This document shows positions 3,688 through 31,550 of a DNA stretch of 41,478 nucleotides, in pieces. Positions within the stretch are counted from its first letter, which is position 1. Each line of letters begins with the position of its first letter. The DNA is from Prevotella sp. (GTDB lineage: Bacteria > Bacteroidota > Bacteroidia > Bacteroidales > Bacteroidaceae). The notes under the pieces were generated by a model. That model was not told where the DNA came from. It worked only from the letters and a program-made list of their open reading frames with translations, and ran no database searches. The translations under genes were made by a program, and so were the position numbers. The stretch lies in NCBI GenBank assembly GCA_017557185.1, contig JAFZAP010000022.1:1-41478 (forward strand), in the 5' to 3' direction.

Positions 3688-4638
3688 ATGAAGAAGAATA
3701 TAATCATTGCAGTTGCAGCTCTGATGACTGTTGCCTGCGGAAACAAAGAAAAGGAGTATGATGCTACAGGCACGTTTGAGGCTACGGAGGTGACGGTGGC
3801 AGCGGAGCAGAATGGAATGCTGATGATGTTCGACGTCGATGAGGGCGACGAGATCGCTCTTGGCAAGGAAGTAGGACTTATCGACACCACGCAGATCTGG
3901 CTGAAGATAAAACAATTGGGGGCCACGAAGGAGGTCTATCAGAGTCAGAAGCCTGACATGGGGAAGCAAATTGCGGCAACTCGTCAGCAATTGATAAAGG
4001 CCCGTCAGGACCAGCAGCGCTACAAGGAATTGGTGGCTGACGGTGCTGCGCCCGGCAAGATGCTCGACGATGCCACGAATCAGGTTCAGGTGCTGCAGAA
4101 ACAGCTCGATGCACAGATTTCTTCGCTCAACACTCAACTTTCAACTCTCAACTCTCAACTTTCAACTGTCAATGTGCAGGTGAGTCAGCTAAGGGATCAA
4201 CTTCGGAAGTGTCATGTCATGACCCCTATCAAAGGCACGGTGCTTGAGAAATATGTAGAAAAGGGTGAGTTCGTAGCCGTCGGCAAGCCGCTGTTCAAAA
4301 TGGCCGATACGGAACAGATGTATATGCGCGCTTATGTTACTTCGTCACAGCTGAAGGACATCAAGGTAGGACAGAAGGCAAAGGTCTTTGCCGACTATGG
4401 CGACGGACAAAAGAAGGAGTACGAGGGTACGGTGACTTGGATTTCAAGCCGCTCGGAGTTTACACCGAAGACCATTCTCACAGATGACGAACGTGCAGAC
4501 TTGGTGTATGCGCTGAAGGTGGCCATCAAGAATGACGGATACGTGAAGATTGGAATGTACGGGGAAGTGAAATTCGGCCTCACCCCCGACCCCGGCCTCA
4601 CCCCTAACCTCTCTCCAAAGGACGAGGGGAGTAAATAG
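3688..4638 (+). CDS. HlyD-family periplasmic adaptor lipoprotein
   Basis: 316 aa. Signal peptide with lipobox (ALMTVAC), so probably lipidated on the cysteine near residue 17. Then a lipoyl-like half (GTFEATEVTVAAEQNGML... VDEGDEIALGKEVGLID), a coiled-coil hairpin (about 85-175), the second lipoyl half (TPIKGTVLEKYVEKGEFVAVGKPLFKM, quoted in pieces) and a beta-barrel domain. It resembles YbhG and would bridge the TolC channel and the ABC permeases. Two oddities: part of the coiled coil is coded by a 7-bp tandem repeat (4127-4175), and the last 20 residues are the translation of a palindromic GC-rich element (4577-4637), so the native C-terminus was probably near GEVKFGL. Confidence 0.9.
   Translation: MKKNIIIAVAALMTVACGNKEKEYDATGTFEATEVTVAAEQNGMLMMFDVDEGDEIALGKEVGLIDTTQIWLKIKQLGATKEVYQSQKPDMGKQIAATRQQLIKARQDQQRYKELVADGAAPGKMLDDATNQVQVLQKQLDAQISSLNTQLSTLNSQLSTVNVQVSQLRDQLRKCHVMTPIKGTVLEKYVEKGEFVAVGKPLFKMADTEQMYMRAYVTSSQLKDIKVGQKAKVFADYGDGQKKEYEGTVTWISSRSEFTPKTILTDDERADLVYALKVAIKNDGYVKIGMYGEVKFGLTPDPGLTPNLSPKDEGSK
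4127..4175 (+). repeat. 7-bp tandem repeat (TCAACTY) inside the adaptor gene
   Basis: Seven successive 7-mers: TCAACAC, TCAACTT, TCAACTC, TCAACTC, TCAACTT, TCAACTG, TCAATGT. Three units equal 21 bp, or seven residues, so the repeat encodes a regular heptad-like series (QLSTLNS) within the coiled coil. A shorter copy of the same repeat sits before the second permease gene at 7312-7332. Confidence 0.85.
4577..4637. repeat. GC-rich palindromic element forming the adaptor C-terminus
   Basis: GGCCTCACCCCCGACCCC, a second CCTCACCCC, then CTCTCC-AAAGGA-CGAGGGGAG. It belongs to the same family as 151-187, 6456-6540 and 6645-6687 (GCCTCACCCCC...CGAGGGGAGTA). It supplies the last 20 codons and sits next to the stop codon. 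Confidence 0.75.
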
Positions 4639-4647
4639 ACTAATCCC

Positions 4648-6150
4648 ATGAATGAAGCAATCATCGTAAGTCACGTCAGCAAAAGCTACGGCAGGGTGAA
4701 GGCACTCGATGATGTGTCGTTCTCCGTTGGTAAGGGTGAGGTGTTCGGACTCATCGGCCCTGACGGAGCAGGCAAGACATCGCTGTACCGCATTCTCTCT
4801 ACGTTGTTACTGGCCGATGAGGGTACTGCCACTGTTGACGGTTTCGATGTGGTGCGCCAGATGAAGAACATCCGTAAGCGCGTGGGATATATGCCTGGAC
4901 GGTTCTCACTCTATCAGGACTTGACAGTCAGGGAAAACCTTGAGTTTTTCGCAACCCTCTTTGGTACGACGGTCGATGAGGGGTACGACAGTATCAAGGC
5001 TATCTACTCGCAAATAGAACGCTTCTCAAATCGTAAGGCGGGTGCTCTTTCTGGCGGCATGAAGCAGAAACTGGCACTGAGTTGTGCGCTGGTGCATCAG
5101 CCCAGCGTGCTCTTCCTTGATGAGCCAACGACGGGTGTCGATCCTGTATCGCGCAAGGAGTTATGGGAAATGCTGACGATGTTGAAAGAACGTGAGATCA
5201 CGATTGTGGCTTCTACGCCCTATCTCGACGAGGTACGGCAGTGTGAGCGTGTGGCATTCCTGAGCGAAGGTCACGTGATGGGTATCGACACGCCAGAGGT
5301 GATACTCAATAGGTTCAAAGATGTGTTTAATCCAGCCCCCCTCAAATCCTCCCAACTGGGGGGAAGTACTGGCGGTTCTGAAAACCTCCCCCAGTCGGGG
5401 GAGGTTGGTGGGGGCTCTGTCATTGAGGTCTCTCATCTTGTCAAGGCATTTGGTGACTTTCATGCCGTCGATGACATCAGTTTCAATGTGAAGCGAGGCG
5501 AGATATTCGGCTTCCTCGGTGCAAATGGCGCAGGCAAAACCACCGCGATGCATATGCTGACAGGACTGAACCAGCCCACCAGCGGCATGGGGCGAGTAGC
5601 AGGCTTCGACATTCGCACGGAGCACGAACAGATCAAGAAGCACATCGGCTATATGAGTCAGAAGTTCTCCCTGTATGAGGATTTGACGGTAAGCGAGAAT
5701 ATACGCCTCTTTGCCGGCATCTACGGGATGGAAAGTGAAGAGATCAAAGTGAAAAGTGAAAAGTTGCTGCGCCAGTTGAAGTTCGAGGATCACAAGAACG
5801 ACCTCGTAGGTTCACTTCCATTGGGTTGGAAACAGAAACTCGCCTTCTCGGTGAGCATCTTTCACGAGCCATCAATAGTGTTTCTTGATGAGCCCACGGG
5901 TGGAGTAGATCCTGCTACCCGCCGACAGTTCTGGGAATTGATTTACGAGGCTGCCTCGCGAGGTATCACCGTCTTCGTGACGACTCACTATATGGACGAA
6001 GCAGAATATTGTGACCGCATCTCGATTATGGTGGATGGGAAGATCAGTGCGATAGGGACGCCTGAGGAACTTAAACGCAACTTCGGACAGCCTGACATGG
6101 ATCATGTGTTCACTTACTTAGCTCGGCAAGCCACACGTTCTTCGGATTAA
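4648..6150 (+). CDS. Double ABC transporter ATPase (YbhF-like)
   Basis: 500 aa with two complete nucleotide-binding domains in tandem. First: Walker A GPDGAGKTS (37-45), signature LSGGMKQKLAL (134-144), Walker B VLFLDEPTTGVDP (154-166). Second: Walker A GANGAGKTT (291-299), a variant signature LPLGWKQKLAF (390-400), Walker B VFLDEPTGGVDP (411-422), H-loop TTHYMDEAEYC. The LPLGWKQ signature is normal for the second half of YbhF-type proteins. It energises the two permeases downstream. The interdomain linker (about 229-257) is built from a pair of palindromic GC-rich repeats (5334-5416), and residues around 365-373 come from a short AAAGTGA repeat. Confidence 0.93.
   Translation: MNEAIIVSHVSKSYGRVKALDDVSFSVGKGEVFGLIGPDGAGKTSLYRILSTLLLADEGTATVDGFDVVRQMKNIRKRVGYMPGRFSLYQDLTVRENLEFFATLFGTTVDEGYDSIKAIYSQIERFSNRKAGALSGGMKQKLALSCALVHQPSVLFLDEPTTGVDPVSRKELWEMLTMLKEREITIVASTPYLDEVRQCERVAFLSEGHVMGIDTPEVILNRFKDVFNPAPLKSSQLGGSTGGSENLPQSGEVGGGSVIEVSHLVKAFGDFHAVDDISFNVKRGEIFGFLGANGAGKTTAMHMLTGLNQPTSGMGRVAGFDIRTEHEQIKKHIGYMSQKFSLYEDLTVSENIRLFAGIYGMESEEIKVKSEKLLRQLKFEDHKNDLVGSLPLGWKQKLAFSVSIFHEPSIVFLDEPTGGVDPATRRQFWELIYEAASRGITVFVTTHYMDEAEYCDRISIMVDGKISAIGTPEELKRNFGQPDMDHVFTYLARQATRSSD
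5334..5416. repeat. Miniature paired palindromic element in the ABC interdomain linker
   Basis: Left arm 5334-5365 (AGCCCCCCTC...CCTCCCAACTGGGGGG) and right arm 5383-5416 (AACCTCCCCCAGTCGGGGGA...GGTGGGGGCT) are inverted copies of each other, each with an internal hairpin, separated by about 17 bp. The arms resemble the terminal repeats of the DUF559 element in priA. It is in frame and encodes the ENLPQSGEVGGG linker. Confidence 0.8.
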
Positions 6151-6168
6151 TGCTCATTGTTCAATAAT

Positions 6169-7308
6169 ATGAAGCAGTTCATTAATTTTGTAATCAAGGA
6201 AGCCAAACACATCTTGCGCGACAAGCGTACGATGCTGATACTTTTCGGTATGCCAGTTGTGCTGATGCTGATTTTCGGCTTCGCTATTACCAACGATGTG
6301 AGGAATGTGCGTACGGTGGTGGTGACTTCGCAGATGGACCACTTGACGCAGCAGGCCATCGACCGCCTTGCAGCATCAGAATACTTTACGATTATCACGA
6401 CTGTCCCCACACCGAAAGACGCAGAATTAATGATACGCAGCCAGAAGGCCGATATGGGCCTCATCCCCGGCCCAGCCTCACCCTCTAACCCCCTCTCCAA
6501 GGGACGAGGGGGAACGCCTACGGCGGGCAAGGGGAGTAATCACACCTGGCAAATCATGGTTGACGGTGCTGACCCCAACATGGCCCAGCAATGGACAACA
6601 TACGCACAGGCAATTCTCTCTCAACCCATCGGAGGTAAGAACGATTTACTCTCCTCGCCCTTCGGAGAGGGGGCGGGGGTGAGGCTTCTCTATAATCCTC
6701 AGATGAAGTCGGCTTACAACTTCGTGCCTGCCATCATGGGTATGCTGCTGTTGCTGATTTGTGCCATGATGACATCCGTTAGTATTGTTCGTGAAAAGGA
6801 ACGCGGTACAATGGAGGTACTCTTGGTTTCGCCTGTCCGCCCTCTAATGATTATCGTGGCGAAGGTGGTGCCATATCTGTTGTTGGCACTGCTCATCCTT
6901 GCTATGATCCTACTGATATCGGCCACCGTGCTCGATGTACCGCTACAAGGTTCGTTAGGGTGGATACTTGTGGTTTCGCTTATCTACATACTGCTTGCAC
7001 TATCCTTAGGACTGCTCATCTCGAATATCGCGCAGACGCAGTTCGTGGCCCTGCTCGTATCGGCGATGGTGCTGCTGTTGCCTACCGTGATGCTTTCCGG
7101 CATGCTGTTCCCTGTAGAGTCGATGCCCGTCATCCTGCAATGGATTTCGGCGATCATTCCACCTCGCTACTACATTCAGGCTATGCGCAAGCTGATGATT
7201 ATGGGTGTGGGTATCCAGGAGGTATGGCACGAGGTGGCTGTCCTTATTGGTATGACAGCTTTTTTGCTCGTTGTTTCACTTAAGAAATTCAAGACGCGGT
7301 TGGAATAA
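6169..7308 (+). CDS. ABC-2 type permease, first of pair (YbhS/YbhR-like)
   Basis: 379 aa from the ATG at 6169, 18 bp after the ATPase stop; an in-frame TTG at 6157 is a weaker alternative. One membrane helix near the N-terminus (about 19-39, TMLILFGMPVVLMLIFGFAI), a periplasmic domain, then about five helices in the C-terminal half including the ABC-2 block VREKERGTMEVLLVSPVRP. The periplasmic domain carries two in-frame palindromic insertions (residues about 96-124 and 160-173) that make it longer than a plain family member. It would pair with the next gene's product to form the inner membrane channel of the exporter. Confidence 0.9.
   Translation: MKQFINFVIKEAKHILRDKRTMLILFGMPVVLMLIFGFAITNDVRNVRTVVVTSQMDHLTQQAIDRLAASEYFTIITTVPTPKDAELMIRSQKADMGLIPGPASPSNPLSKGRGGTPTAGKGSNHTWQIMVDGADPNMAQQWTTYAQAILSQPIGGKNDLLSSPFGEGAGVRLLYNPQMKSAYNFVPAIMGMLLLLICAMMTSVSIVREKERGTMEVLLVSPVRPLMIIVAKVVPYLLLALLILAMILLISATVLDVPLQGSLGWILVVSLIYILLALSLGLLISNIAQTQFVALLVSAMVLLLPTVMLSGMLFPVESMPVILQWISAIIPPRYYIQAMRKLMIMGVGIQEVWHEVAVLIGMTAFLLVVSLKKFKTRLE
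6456..6540. repeat. GC-rich palindromic insertion in the first permease gene
   Basis: GGCCTCATCCCCGGCCCAGC, CCTCACCCTCTAACCCCCTC, then TCCAAGGGACGAGGGGG, an internal AACGCCTACGGCGG and a closing AAGGGGAGTAAT. It is translated in frame as a Pro/Gly/Ser-rich stretch (GPASPSNPLSKGRGGTPTAG). Confidence 0.78.
6645..6687. repeat. Second GC-rich palindromic insertion in the first permease gene
   Basis: CTCTCCTCGCCCTTCGGAGA followed by GGGGGCGGGGGTGAGGC. Its reverse complement begins GCCTCACCCCCGCCCCCTCTC, up to one base, matching the family consensus. In-frame product: SSPFGEGAGV. Confidence 0.78.
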
Positions 7309-22510: not shown

Positions 22511-22554
22511 CCTACCCCCATCCCCTCCCTAAAGGGAAGGGGGACAGAGAGGTG
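22509..22554. repeat. GC-rich palindromic element between porP and gldK
   Basis: AGCCTACCCCCATCCCCTCC, then CTAAAGGGAAGGGGGA and CAGAGAGG. The core hairpin is CCCTCCCTAAAGGGAAGGG. It closely matches the reverse complement of about 233-270. It lies inside the T9SS operon and could attenuate or stabilise the transcript between porP and gldK. Confidence 0.8.
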
Positions 22555-28623: not shown

Positions 28624-28631
28624 TATCTTTG
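28624..28631 (+). promoter_or_regulatory. -7 box of priA, abutting the start codon
   Basis: TATCTTTG ends only six bases before the ATG at 28638. With the usual -7 to start-point distance, transcription would begin at or next to the A of the ATG, so this transcript would be leaderless or nearly so. The T-run of the T9SS terminator overlaps the upstream region. Confidence 0.65.
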
Positions 28632-28637
28632 CAGCCT

Positions 28638-31370
28638 ATGCGATATGTCGACGTGATATTGCCATTGCCTCTCGACGGGGTGTTTACCTATGCCATCAGC
28701 GACGAGCTAGCGGCACGGGCAAAGGCTGGCATGCGCGTCGTAGTACCGTTCAACAAGTCGAAGCGCTATACAGCCATCATTGTCAGTCTGCACGACCGCA
28801 AGCCAGAATTCGAGGTGAAGCCTGTCATAGAACTCCTTGACGCGAAGCCCATCTTGCTGCCTGCACAACTGCAGCTGTGGCAGTGGATTAGTCAATATTA
28901 TATGGCACCGCTGGGGGAAGTGATGAATGCCGCCCTGCCCGCCGGACTGAAGAACGAGGAAGGCTATCGTCCGAAGACCGAGACCTATATCGGCCTATGC
29001 GAGCCTTTCCGCAATGAACAAGCCCTCCACATCGCCCTCGATATGCTGCAACGTGCCGAGAAGCAGCAGAAGGTATTGGTTGACTTCCTGTCGATGAGCG
29101 GTTATGCTGATACCCTTGGGCAAACGACTGGCGAGGCAGCCCGCATCGCTGAGGTCACTCGCGATGAACTGATGAATGAAAGCCACTGTACAGCAGCGGT
29201 GCTGAAATCGCTCATCGATCGAAAAATTCTATATACCTATGAACGCGAGGTCGGTCGTCTGAATCATGGCGGTGAGCCGCATCCCGAGTGTATCAAGAAA
29301 CTCAATGCTGCCCAGCAGGATGCCTATAATCAGTTGCTGTTCCAGTTCTTGCGCAAGAAGGTTGTACTGTTGCATGGCGTGACATCGAGCGGCAAGACGG
29401 AAATCTATATCCACCTCATCCAGAAGACACTCGATGAAGGCAAGCAGGTGCTCTACTTGCTGCCTGAGATTGCACTCACTGTGCAGATGATGGACCGCCT
29501 ACGCGCTGTTTTTGGCAATCGTCTGGGCATATACCATTCTCGTTATAGTGATGCTGAGCGTGTGGAGATTTGGCAGAAGCAACTCTCCCGCAATCCCTAT
29601 GATGTCATTCTCGGTGCTCGCTCGGCAGTGTTCCTACCGTTCCAGCGGTTAGGATTGGTCATCATCGATGAAGAACATGAGACATCTTTCAAGCAGCAGG
29701 ACCCTGCCCCGCGCTATCATGCAAGAAGTGTGGCGGTGATGTTGGGGGCCCCCTCCAACCTCCCCCAACTGGGGGAGGCTACTGCAGCGAAAGAAAAAAT
29801 GCAGAAGATAATTGATCACTATAAAACTGCTCATCCTGCAAGCTATGCAATGTTAAAGCAATATTCGATAGAACAAAGAAATTGTCCTACCGAGGCAGAA
29901 AAGGCCATGTGGGAAATGTTAAGGGGCAAGAATCTTCATGCAAAGTTTCGCAGACAGCATGTTATTTGTGATTTCATCGTTGATTTTGTCTGTTTAAAAA
30001 GTAACCTGATTATAGAAATTGATGGTGGATACCATCTTTCGCAGGAGCAAAAAGAAGCCGATCAATTAAGAACCTCAATGCTCCGTGATATGGGTTTTGT
30101 AGAGTTGAGATTCACAAACGATCAGGTGTTACATCAACCAGACGAAGTTTTGCAAACTATTAGTAAGTTTCTTGCCAGTTTGAAAGCCTCCCCTAGTTGG
30201 GGGAGGTTGGAGGGGGCTAAGATCCTTCTTGGCACCGCAACACCCTCGATGGAAACTTATTATAATGCGCAGGTAGGAAAATACGGACTTGTGACACTTG
30301 GGACGCGCTATCAGGGTATTGAACTGCCAGAGATAGAGGTGGTCGATGTGAAAGATCTGCGGCGGCGAAAGATGATGTCGGGTCCGTTCTCGCCACAACT
30401 GCTTGCAGCCGTGCGCGAGGCCCTTGGCAATCAGGAGCAGGTTATCCTATTCCAGAACCGTCGAGGTTTTGCACCGATGGTGGAGTGCAACACCTGCGGC
30501 TGGGTGCCGCGCTGCAAGAATTGCGATGTCTCGCTGACGCTGCACAAGAATACCAACACCCTGACCTGCCATTATTGCGGCTATACCTATACGGTGCCCA
30601 CTCAATGTCCTTCCTGCGAGGGCAACGACTTGCGCGGCCGCGGCTATGGCACGGAGAAAATCGAAGATCAACTGCGCGACCTGTTCCCTGAAGCCCGCAT
30701 AGCCCGCATGGACCTCGACACCACCCGTTCACGCAACGCCTATGAGCGGCTCATCAGCGACTTCGCTTCGGGGCGAACGAATGTGCTCATCGGCACGCAG
30801 ATGATTTCCAAGGGTCTCGACTTCGACCACGTGTCAGTGGTAGGCATCCTCGATGCCGATACCATGTTGAACTATCCGGATTTCCGCGCCTACGAGCATG
30901 CTTTTATGATGATGGCTCAGGTGAGCGGGCGTGCCGGCCGCAAGGGCAAGCGTGGACATGTGTTGCTTCAGACCAAAAACAAGGAACTGTCAGTCATCAA
31001 ACAAGTGGTGCAGAACGACTATGCAGCTTTCTATCAGGAGTTGCTTGAAGAGCGACGCCAGTTCCGCTATCCGCCGTTCTACCACCTCGTGTATGTATAT
31101 TTGCGCCACAAGACCGAAAGCACTGTTGAATCGGCATCAATCTATATGGGCAGTTTGTTGCGCCAGTGGTTTGGCGAGCGTGTGCTGGGTCCCGACAAAC
31201 CTGGCATTTCGAAAGTGAAGACACTCCACATTCGTAAGATAGTTTTGAAGTTGGAGAACGGAATTGACTTGAATCTTGTACGTGATTATTTGCTGTATGC
31301 ACAAAAGCAAATCATGCAGGACAAACAATATGCCTCGCTGCAAATATTCTTCGACGTTGACCCATTATAG
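28638..31370 (+). CDS. priA: Primosomal replication protein N' (PriA helicase) interrupted in frame by a DUF559 domain
   Basis: 910 aa, about 155 more than expected without the insert. N-terminal PriA domain (RYVDVILPLPLDGVFTYAIS), helicase Walker A GVTSSGKTE (about 247-255), motif II DEEH (about 344-347), motif III GTATPS (about 532-537), zinc cysteines (CNTCGWVPRCKNC, CHYCGYTYTVPTQCPSC), motif V GTQMISKGLDF and motif VI QVSGRAGRKG. It restarts stalled replication forks and loads the replicative helicase. Between motifs II and III, residues about 371-526 are a foreign DUF559 domain flanked by palindromic repeats (29748-30215). Reading across the junction without it gives VMLGAKILLGTATPS, the normal order. 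All other PriA motifs are intact, so the protein is probably functional with the insert as a surface domain, but this is untested. Confidence 0.93.
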   Translation: MRYVDVILPLPLDGVFTYAISDELAARAKAGMRVVVPFNKSKRYTAIIVSLHDRKPEFEVKPVIELLDAKPILLPAQLQLWQWISQYYMAPLGEVMNAALPAGLKNEEGYRPKTETYIGLCEPFRNEQALHIALDMLQRAEKQQKVLVDFLSMSGYADTLGQTTGEAARIAEVTRDELMNESHCTAAVLKSLIDRKILYTYEREVGRLNHGGEPHPECIKKLNAAQQDAYNQLLFQFLRKKVVLLHGVTSSGKTEIYIHLIQKTLDEGKQVLYLLPEIALTVQMMDRLRAVFGNRLGIYHSRYSDAERVEIWQKQLSRNPYDVILGARSAVFLPFQRLGLVIIDEEHETSFKQQDPAPRYHARSVAVMLGAPSNLPQLGEATAAKEKMQKIIDHYKTAHPASYAMLKQYSIEQRNCPTEAEKAMWEMLRGKNLHAKFRRQHVICDFIVDFVCLKSNLIIEIDGGYHLSQEQKEADQLRTSMLRDMGFVELRFTNDQVLHQPDEVLQTISKFLASLKASPSWGRLEGAKILLGTATPSMETYYNAQVGKYGLVTLGTRYQGIELPEIEVVDVKDLRRRKMMSGPFSPQLLAAVREALGNQEQVILFQNRRGFAPMVECNTCGWVPRCKNCDVSLTLHKNTNTLTCHYCGYTYTVPTQCPSCEGNDLRGRGYGTEKIEDQLRDLFPEARIARMDLDTTRSRNAYERLISDFASGRTNVLIGTQMISKGLDFDHVSVVGILDADTMLNYPDFRAYEHAFMMMAQVSGRAGRKGKRGHVLLQTKNKELSVIKQVVQNDYAAFYQELLEERRQFRYPPFYHLVYVYLRHKTESTVESASIYMGSLLRQWFGERVLGPDKPGISKVKTLHIRKIVLKLENGIDLNLVRDYLLYAQKQIMQDKQYASLQIFFDVDPL
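29748..30215 (+). mobile_element. DUF559 nuclease-domain element with palindromic terminal inverted repeats, in frame in priA
   Basis: 468 bp, exactly 156 codons, no stop. Left end 29748-29779 (GCCCCCTCCAACCTCCCCCA then ACTGGGGGAGGC) and right end 30185-30216 are inverted copies with one mismatch over about 32 bp; each also folds on itself (CCTCCCCCAACTGGGGGAGG). Inside, residues such as TEAEKAMWEMLRGK, FRRQHVICDFIVDF and LIIEIDGGYH, then LRDMGFVELRFTNDQVL, match DUF559, a PD-(D/E)XK (Vsr/restriction-like) nuclease fold; D in IVDF and E-x-D in IEIDG fit the active site. The inner part is AT-richer than priA. A possible internal start with an A-rich leader (AAAGAAAAAATG) lies near 29800. Not an intein: no splice-junction residues. 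Confidence 0.82.
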
Positions 31371-31380
31371 TCTATCGATG

Positions 31381-31534
31381 ACGAAAACCATAGCTTTTCG
31401 CATTGGAAAGCATGCCTTTTCAAGTTGGAAAGCATAACTCCCCGCGTTGGAAAGTATAGCTCCCCGACTCGGAAAGTATAGCTCCCCGACTCGGAAAGGA
31501 TATCTTTTCGCGTTGGAAAGGATACCTTTCGGGT
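31381..31534. repeat. 22-bp-period repeat array, seven units, after priA
   Basis: Units start at 31381, 31403, 31425, 31447, 31469, 31491 and 31513. Consensus TTGGAAAGYATARCT followed by CCCCGAC or TTTCGCG. Several are imperfect dyads, for example GGAAAGGATATCTTTTC. Lies between the convergent priA and FadL-like genes. The gap 31371-31666 otherwise holds only the hairpin at 31551-31585. Confidence 0.9.
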
Positions 31535-31550
31535 TGCTAACCAATAAAGA

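Follow-up and report, generated by a model that had tools for sequence, protein, structure and literature searches.

How does a nuclease domain come to lie in the middle of a PriA protein without breaking its reading frame? The question is posed by a 41,478-nucleotide stretch of DNA from Prevotella sp. (contig JAFZAP010000022.1 of assembly GCA_017557185.1; the whole stretch is referred to as the window), in which the priA frame (28629-31370, plus strand) is interrupted by an element carrying a DUF559 nuclease domain and remains open throughout its 913 amino acids, 156 extra codons included. We consider it probable that this insert represents a family of small selfish elements with a Vsr-type nuclease as the enzyme and with ends that tolerate translation. 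Such a family would be similar to REPINs (inverted pairs of repetitive extragenic palindromes, REPs) and to REPtrons (REPs or REPINs with their REP-associated tyrosine transposase, RAYT).

A Pfam scan of the 913-amino-acid frame placed PriA_3primeBD, DEAD, Zn_ribbon_PriA and PriA_C around a clear member of the DUF559 family (PF04480; E 8.3e-31, 106.5 bits against a cut-off of 20.6). The insert occupies 29748-30215, that is 468 nucleotides or exactly 156 codons in frame, as the preliminary description of this DNA had proposed together with the identity of the cargo. It lies between the DEEH and GTATPS motifs of PriA, which we take to be helicase motifs II and III, in a loop whose length varies among relatives. 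Within it, profiles and a predicted fold assign 29856-30173 (plus strand) to a nuclease domain of the Vsr/I-Bth0305I-like PD-(D/E)XK type, with its E-x-D motif kept. Repeat search, end model, folding and palindrome search all identified the terminal inverted repeats, one at 29748-29780 (plus strand; tag GCCCCCTCC plus palindrome CCTCCCCCAACTGGGGGAGG) and the other at 30185-30217 (minus strand), the latter reaching 2 nucleotides past the end of the insert at 30215. These arms, earlier put at about 32 base pairs, are 33 nucleotides long and 97% complementary, and each also folds into a hairpin of its own, again as first described (left arm -9.2 kcal/mol, z -2.5; right arm -8.3 kcal/mol, z -2.4; for each arm, 2 of 200 shuffles were equally good). 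Allowing up to three mismatches, the left palindrome matched the window six times (three places on both strands, the third at 5385-5404) and gave no match in 100 shuffles. The claim that excising the insert restores a normal PriA held in part: with the 156 codons taken out, the sequence is RYHARSVAVMLGAKILLGTATPS, an unbroken frame, but it falls 4 residues short of even the shortest among 29 relatives, which have at least 27 residues there. Because of this shortfall, a small loss of sequence may have accompanied entry into priA.

The same site is empty elsewhere. A PriA query matched all 60 genomes searched, including that of the window (weakly only in G018, G021, G052 and G055); 30 loci were fetched, and all 29 from other genomes were uninterrupted, which leads us to reject an old conserved PriA domain. 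A second case of presence and absence is a copy outside long frames in genome G026 (L014) that is missing from G003, where the flanks are 98% identical and only two bases lie between the matched flanks. On a tree, the nearest relatives of the window's nuclease sit in other genes (MazG-like, CCA transferase and DegT) or at unlabelled loci. Since the priA site is empty in all 29 relatives, a copy is absent from a 98% identical locus and the closest nucleases occupy other genes, sequence comparison supports the view that the priA insert is a unit that has moved. Among 109 elements, nuclease similarity also tracked end similarity in pairs at different sites (rho 0.21; none of 2000 permutations as high), as expected of a unit travelling with its own ends.

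Paired hairpins recur around DUF559 genes. We scored the best local match between the left flank of each gene and the reverse complement of its right flank, using random positions in the same loci as controls; hits whose flanks were too short (three of the 80 named ones, one of the 38 viral ones) were left out. The genome of the window (3.35 Mb in 116 contigs) contains DUF559 six times in full and once as a weak match; all six complete copies are bordered on both sides by inverted C-rich hairpins, and five pass the automatic score (L006 fails). The first set comprised 54 hits, from which six duplicates or partial copies were removed (L036, L085, L029, L031, L017 and L008); L007 and L032-L034, weak and partial, were missed by tblastn. 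Here 33 of 48 loci exceeded all 1323 controls, and these units were 437-713 nucleotides long. The genus set gave 26 of 29 top-ranked loci above all 1155 controls, and among 77 loci of named Bacteroidota, 47 lay above the 99th percentile and 34 above the maximum of 2657 controls. Of 20 loci selected because their frames are long, the 99th percentile was exceeded by 13 and the maximum by 10. For the phylum of G323 the corresponding counts were 19 and 12 among 30 loci, and in that of G324 the 99th percentile was passed by 13 of 21; the set around G323 may again consist of Bacteroidota, and the contig of L185, which with L187 was the entry point to both sets, looks like Bacteroidota. DUF559 loci similar to the window's came mostly from Prevotella and other Bacteroidales entries. 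The flank-test controls and the palindrome shuffles reject a chance inverted repeat.

Together, these comparisons support the hairpin ends as part of the DUF559 unit, and the association is strong in Bacteroidota, seen outside them and not universal. The preliminary description had proposed asking whether palindromes lie around Bacteroidota DUF559 genes more often than chance, and they were found above matched controls in the genus, in named Bacteroidota and in the two phylum-wide sets. It had also named two observations that would speak against its account, relatives sharing the insert without palindromes and DUF559 genes elsewhere lacking repeats; neither was obtained for priA.

Entry into conserved genes is likewise a recurrent habit. 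Open frame of at least 120 residues on both sides was found for 79 of 251 DUF559 matches (72 of 232 distinct domains), an over-estimate given that the set includes 20 loci picked for long frames and the 80 best of at least 564 confirmed candidates (close relatives). A fairer figure comes from a manual count of 50 matches with E ≤1e-12, of which 7 lie in frames of at least 400 amino acids and 11 in frames of 280-360. By profiles, leucyl-tRNA synthetase (LeuRS) carries the insert in two genomes of different families, and RecG, ValS, IleS, MetG, MetH, UvrA and an ABC-F ATPase are further hosts whose models match in at least two stretches. Motifs or inspection by eye alone add a Dna2-like helicase, a DegT-type aminotransferase, a CCA transferase and a CinA-like protein, as well as N-terminal DUF559 fusions to guanylate kinase, RNase HI, IspF and ArgB (the last with an AA_kinase profile match). 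The RecG insert is flanked by the DEQH and TATP motifs, a position equivalent to that in PriA. No splicing domain was found when three fusions, the window's PriA among them, were scanned with Pfam; introns were not searched with Rfam.

Of 62 hairpins, 23 (four of them ends of DUF559 units) have an open frame of at least 60 codons to either side, compared with 1358 of 2000 random windows. Taking the frames as read, hairpins appear to avoid these putative genes, and in-frame copies are nonetheless common. Because only 7 of the 50 strong matches are in frames of at least 400 amino acids and hairpins are rarer in open frames than random windows are, in-frame entry looks like the survival of harmless insertions, not a built-in rule. 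Thus, of the original idea of a mobile element that enters conserved genes without breaking the frame, the movement, the hairpin ends as part of the unit and the recurrence of in-frame entry stand, while frame-keeping itself seems to reflect survivorship.

Hairpins were counted with an end model built from 75 DUF559 ends, which are C-rich and start with GCC or ACC; RNAalifold gave no base pairs, so the model is one of sequence only. It was applied to 401071 bases of the window's own genome (the window and 18 of 20 stretches, L427 and L428 being excluded as chosen for known hairpins; the sampled contigs hold three known DUF559 copies). This produced 76 matches at E ≤0.05, of which 62 were used (E ≤0.0084; one at 0.0096 was dropped as the other strand of a used match), a density of about 155 per Mb in this 0.40-Mb sample. 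Neighbouring hairpins within 700 nucleotides were arranged plus-minus nine times, minus-plus twice, plus-plus four times and minus-minus four times. Plus-minus is the arrangement of DUF559 units; four of the nine pairs are such units, and the other five are less than 150 nucleotides apart, too short to hold a nuclease.

Which enzyme accompanies the hairpins? Among 36 genomes of the genus, including the window's, the 16 with a DUF559 match (E ≤1e-12) had a median of 66.5 hairpin hits and the 20 without had 2.5 (p 1.6e-5, Mann-Whitney, one-sided; scoring was limited to 110 candidates per genome). Outside the genus, hairpin hits occurred in five of eight genomes with DUF559 at that threshold and in one of 16 others (Fisher p 0.007). 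The Y1 transposase behaved differently: in 22 genus genomes its presence was not linked to hairpin number (medians 8.5 with and 12.5 without, p 1.0), and five of the eight that lack a Y1_Tnp match have hairpin hits. Genomes G003, G008, G012 and G019 have hairpins and DUF559 and no Y1 match at E 0.001. Of the two enzymes tested, DUF559 is therefore the better candidate partner, and a RAYT or other Y1 enzyme as driver is unsupported in these 22 genomes.

The nuclease has recognizable relatives. A profile of 22 DUF559 copies searched against the PDB matched 3hrl (endonuclease-like; 2e-30) and 3r3p (a mobile intron protein; 1.2e-7), and Foldseek with a model of DUF559 alone (mean predicted local distance difference test score, pLDDT, 86.6) ranked the same two first, with template-modelling (TM) scores of 0.72-0.78; Vsr came further down the list (E 0.02). 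Foldseek names 3r3p as the catalytic domain of I-Bth0305I; both sequence and predicted fold thus make DUF559 a relative of that homing endonuclease. A model of PriA made from PriA rows only (mean pLDDT 77) rendered the insert poorly and is uninformative about its pose. The sole NCBIfam match of the window's domain was PRK09767 (54 bits, under its cut-off of 218). In the literature, the accessible part of PMC9403480 files a Thermosynechococcus DUF559 gene under the EDxHD homing family. The E-x-D motif is kept in 194 of 199 domains and the ratio of nonsynonymous to synonymous substitution rates (dN/dS) is 0.05-0.17 in seven close pairs; the nuclease is therefore under purifying selection as a protein.

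The interpretation as a REPIN-like element is carried by the anatomy of the insert, its recurrence, the empty sites, the many host genes, the co-variation of ends and nuclease, and selection on the nuclease; mobilization by the nuclease, its cleavage specificity, the route of insertion and the function of the fusion proteins are what we infer beyond them. We propose a unit consisting of a DUF559 gene between two REP-like, C-rich hairpins in inverted orientation, with their tags facing outward. The nuclease would recognize and cut its own ends (in cruciform or single-stranded hairpin form), the target DNA, or both, and the unit would then be copied in through repair. At the G003/G026 site, the one clean pair, no target-site duplication was visible and the left junction differs by several bases; on this single example, entry through repair would fit better than a DDE transposase. 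Stop codons are few in the G+C-rich ends, which lets the nuclease frame continue through both; a copy that lands in frame in a permissive loop of a housekeeping protein would survive and be translated as a domain. The in-frame habit would then need no extra device, because such ends seldom hold stops and, within genes, only in-frame loop copies survive. Once fixed, copies would pass on with the host gene while their hairpins decay.

Several results weigh against this proposal. In the flank test, 15 of the 48 loci of the first set failed to score above every control, 30 of 77 named Bacteroidota loci were at or below the 99th percentile, and none of the 21 loci in the phylum of G324 exceeded the control maximum, which is an outlier of 45. 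DUF559 loci on viral contigs passed the 99th percentile in only four of 37 cases and the maximum in one, which also rejects a phage origin, and seven of eight loci on named plasmids failed, the exception being from Pseudanabaena. Hairpin counts come from a model built on DUF559 ends, level off near 110 and were compared without regard to kinship among genomes; moreover, G014, G022, G027 and G032 lack a strong DUF559 match and have 20-38 hairpin hits, and G031 has a strong match and a single hit. The absence of a visible target-site duplication belongs here too, and the shared variation of ends and nuclease would arise in any linked unit, even one mobilized by another enzyme. Finally, the insert follows its host gene in LeuRS (rho 0.59, n=12), RecG (0.50, n=14) and ValRS (0.76, n=5). 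Given this agreement, and hairpin scores no higher than controls in many RecG copies, the insertions in these three genes look old and mostly vertically inherited. Two time scales seem to be at work: young units, that in priA for instance, keep crisp ends, and old ones have turned into domains.

The main rival is a homing-type element, in which DUF559 would cut empty alleles at one site per lineage and be copied by recombination, with the hairpins as linkers or folding aids and not as recognition ends. The homology to the I-Bth0305I catalytic domain in sequence and predicted fold is what such an element would predict, as are a weak match to the PADLOC homing endonuclease model (E 2.6e-5), the presence of the LeuRS insert in two of 60 genomes of the order and an IleRS insert whose history departs from that of its host gene (rho 0.06, n=7). 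Nuclease clades also follow insertion sites, 19 site labels on 79 rows needing 21 changes on a tree of 199 domains (106 columns, 68 of 196 inner branches drawn open, viral loci L216-L294 left out), with a minimum of 18 and a shuffled mean of 58.7 (0 of 200 shuffles as low). Homing to one site, however, requires neither hairpin pairs without a nuclease nor ends that vary with the nuclease across sites, and both were observed; the scanned fusions have no splicing domain, the LeuRS, RecG and ValRS copies follow their host genes, and the units would leave little room for the extended DNA-binding region of I-Bth0305I that is described in the consulted portion of a review (PMC3943268). On balance, we regard homing as rather unlikely.

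A second rival holds that palindromes moved by something else (a RAYT or IS200-like enzyme or a host process) make up composite units and that DUF559 is cargo, for example a very-short-patch (VSP) repair nuclease useful to the host. It draws on purifying selection, on genomes with hairpins and no strong DUF559 match, and on the Caulobacter DUF559 protein VsrA, for which the available part of PMC12907096 gives a link with the SOS response and suggests a role in VSP repair. What makes it doubtful is that Y1 presence was unlinked to hairpin number in the 22 genus genomes (other transposase types were not searched), that four genomes combine hairpins and DUF559 with no Y1 match, and that the 33 passing units have room for little besides DUF559; we rate a passenger nuclease as unlikely too. 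That DUF559 fusions are ordinary, kept for the sake of the host protein, with hairpins as relics of one ancient spread, is hardly credible as a general account. RecG and LeuRS inserts common to many Flavobacteriia and Bacteroidia, following their host genes and, in many RecG copies, bearing weak hairpins, are what it would lead one to expect; the priA copy, with near-perfect hairpins and 29 uninterrupted relatives, refutes it at that locus, and the G026/G003 difference at 98% identity is a further obstacle. The REPIN-like element with a nuclease of its own remains our preferred interpretation.

Other hairpins in the window were located mainly with the end model. An inverted, REPIN-like pair without a nuclease at 5334-5416 lies in frame between the two ATPase domains of a tandem ATP-binding cassette (ABC) ATPase gene (RbbA/DrrA-like, 4639-6147), as indicated by folding and profiles; the end model lists its right half alone (E 0.011). 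A second inverted C-rich pair spans 113-267 (113-146 plus, 235-267 minus) with no 60-codon frame across it. Single C-rich hairpins occur at 4597-4634 (plus strand), just upstream of the start of the ABC ATPase, at 6646-6683 (minus strand), in frame in the next open frame (6151-7305, permease-like by look alone), and at 22512-22545 (plus strand). Just 3' of priA, 31382-31549 holds direct repeats of the GGAAAGTATAGCTCCCCG type with a period of 22 nucleotides (six overlapping 58-nucleotide copies).

Some loci outside the window are described here in their own right. A single hairpin elsewhere in the same genome (L412, 4687-4719) is in frame in a gene that by eye resembles the lipid-A-disaccharide synthase LpxB. 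At L295 and L187, which represent the same place, DUF559 lies in a long frame resembling a restriction-modification methylase; one side carries four LTPALSKGEGE-type repeats in a row, which we read as hairpins amplified in tandem, in frame. Locus L068 (G048:C135) has DUF559 copies at 2016-2324 and 5468-5776, about 3.5 kb apart with a synonymous divergence (dS) of 0.31, perhaps a local duplication. On Pseudanabaena plasmid ABRG53a (L371), a cyanobacterial DUF559 gene at 1417-1806 stands between long inverted CCCCCTAAATCCCCC-type palindromes (score 63), and the link between DUF559 and palindromes may extend to those of cyanobacteria.

A broader proposal, which we advance tentatively, is that these hairpins form a third widespread superfamily of REP-like palindromes, in Bacteroidota and beyond, with a DUF559 nuclease of the Vsr/homing type as dedicated mobilizer. 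It might then be a distinct mobile class, translated in frame in housekeeping proteins without splicing, in which a nuclease acting on hairpin ends replaces the transposase; the prospect that it is a separate class, not a REPIN-like variant, is a fair one. The preliminary description knew of no such system, and our search of open-access titles and abstracts found no paper linking DUF559 with palindromic ends, most subscription papers and bioRxiv preprints lying outside its scope. The findings name a candidate enzyme for a C-rich class of REP-like repeats and give DUF559 a testable role. They also show that nuclease domains enter conserved genes (those for tRNA synthetases, PriA, RecG and UvrA) in frame with no sign of splicing, and account for puzzling "fusion proteins" among annotated genes; should the nuclease prove active, a compact insertion tool is possible.

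Among known systems, insertion sequences and miniature inverted-repeat transposable elements (MITEs) share terminal inverted repeats with DUF559 units. The EDxHD homing endonuclease I-Bth0305I has a homologous catalytic domain and a location inside conserved genes, but the DUF559 product is read within the host frame, bounded by palindromes and found at many unrelated sites; EDxHD homing genes are embedded in introns or inteins or are free-standing, and the window's copy, within the limits of the splicing search given above, is neither. PRK09767 and Caulobacter VsrA belong to the same Pfam family as the window's domain, and VsrA is a stand-alone gene in the available part of PMC12907096, whereas here the gene lies in a palindrome-bounded unit and is often fused to host proteins.

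The closest parallel is with REPtrons, in which the RAYT is also known as TnpA-REP. Both systems have many short palindromes, as singles and inverted pairs, with an enzyme gene between inverted palindromes and some copies inside genes (REP features as given in the accessible text of PMC3733652). That text covers in-frame REPs, Rickettsia palindromic elements (RPEs) and the missing transposase of CGTC REPs, and the string "DUF" does not occur in it. Abundance with inverted pairing, as in REPINs, is evident in the 62 hits and nine plus-minus pairs in 401 kb. The tag is different: of the 75 ends, 10 have GTAG, 11 CTAC, one CGTC and three GACG, so the GTAG/CGTC tag of REPs is not conserved, and identity with either REP class was rejected. 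To our knowledge no enzyme has been assigned to RPEs, whereas many DUF559 units carry a nuclease. RPEs resemble these units as in-frame palindromes within genes of likely functional proteins, and differ in the CGTC tag given for RPE-4 and RPE-6, which the DUF559 ends lack (both points from the same portion of PMC3733652). The comparison first drawn with REP/RAYT systems, in logic though not in parts, thus holds for the pairs, the singles and the enzyme gene between inverted palindromes, with a PD-(D/E)XK nuclease of the Vsr type in the place of the HUH (Y1) tyrosine transposase.

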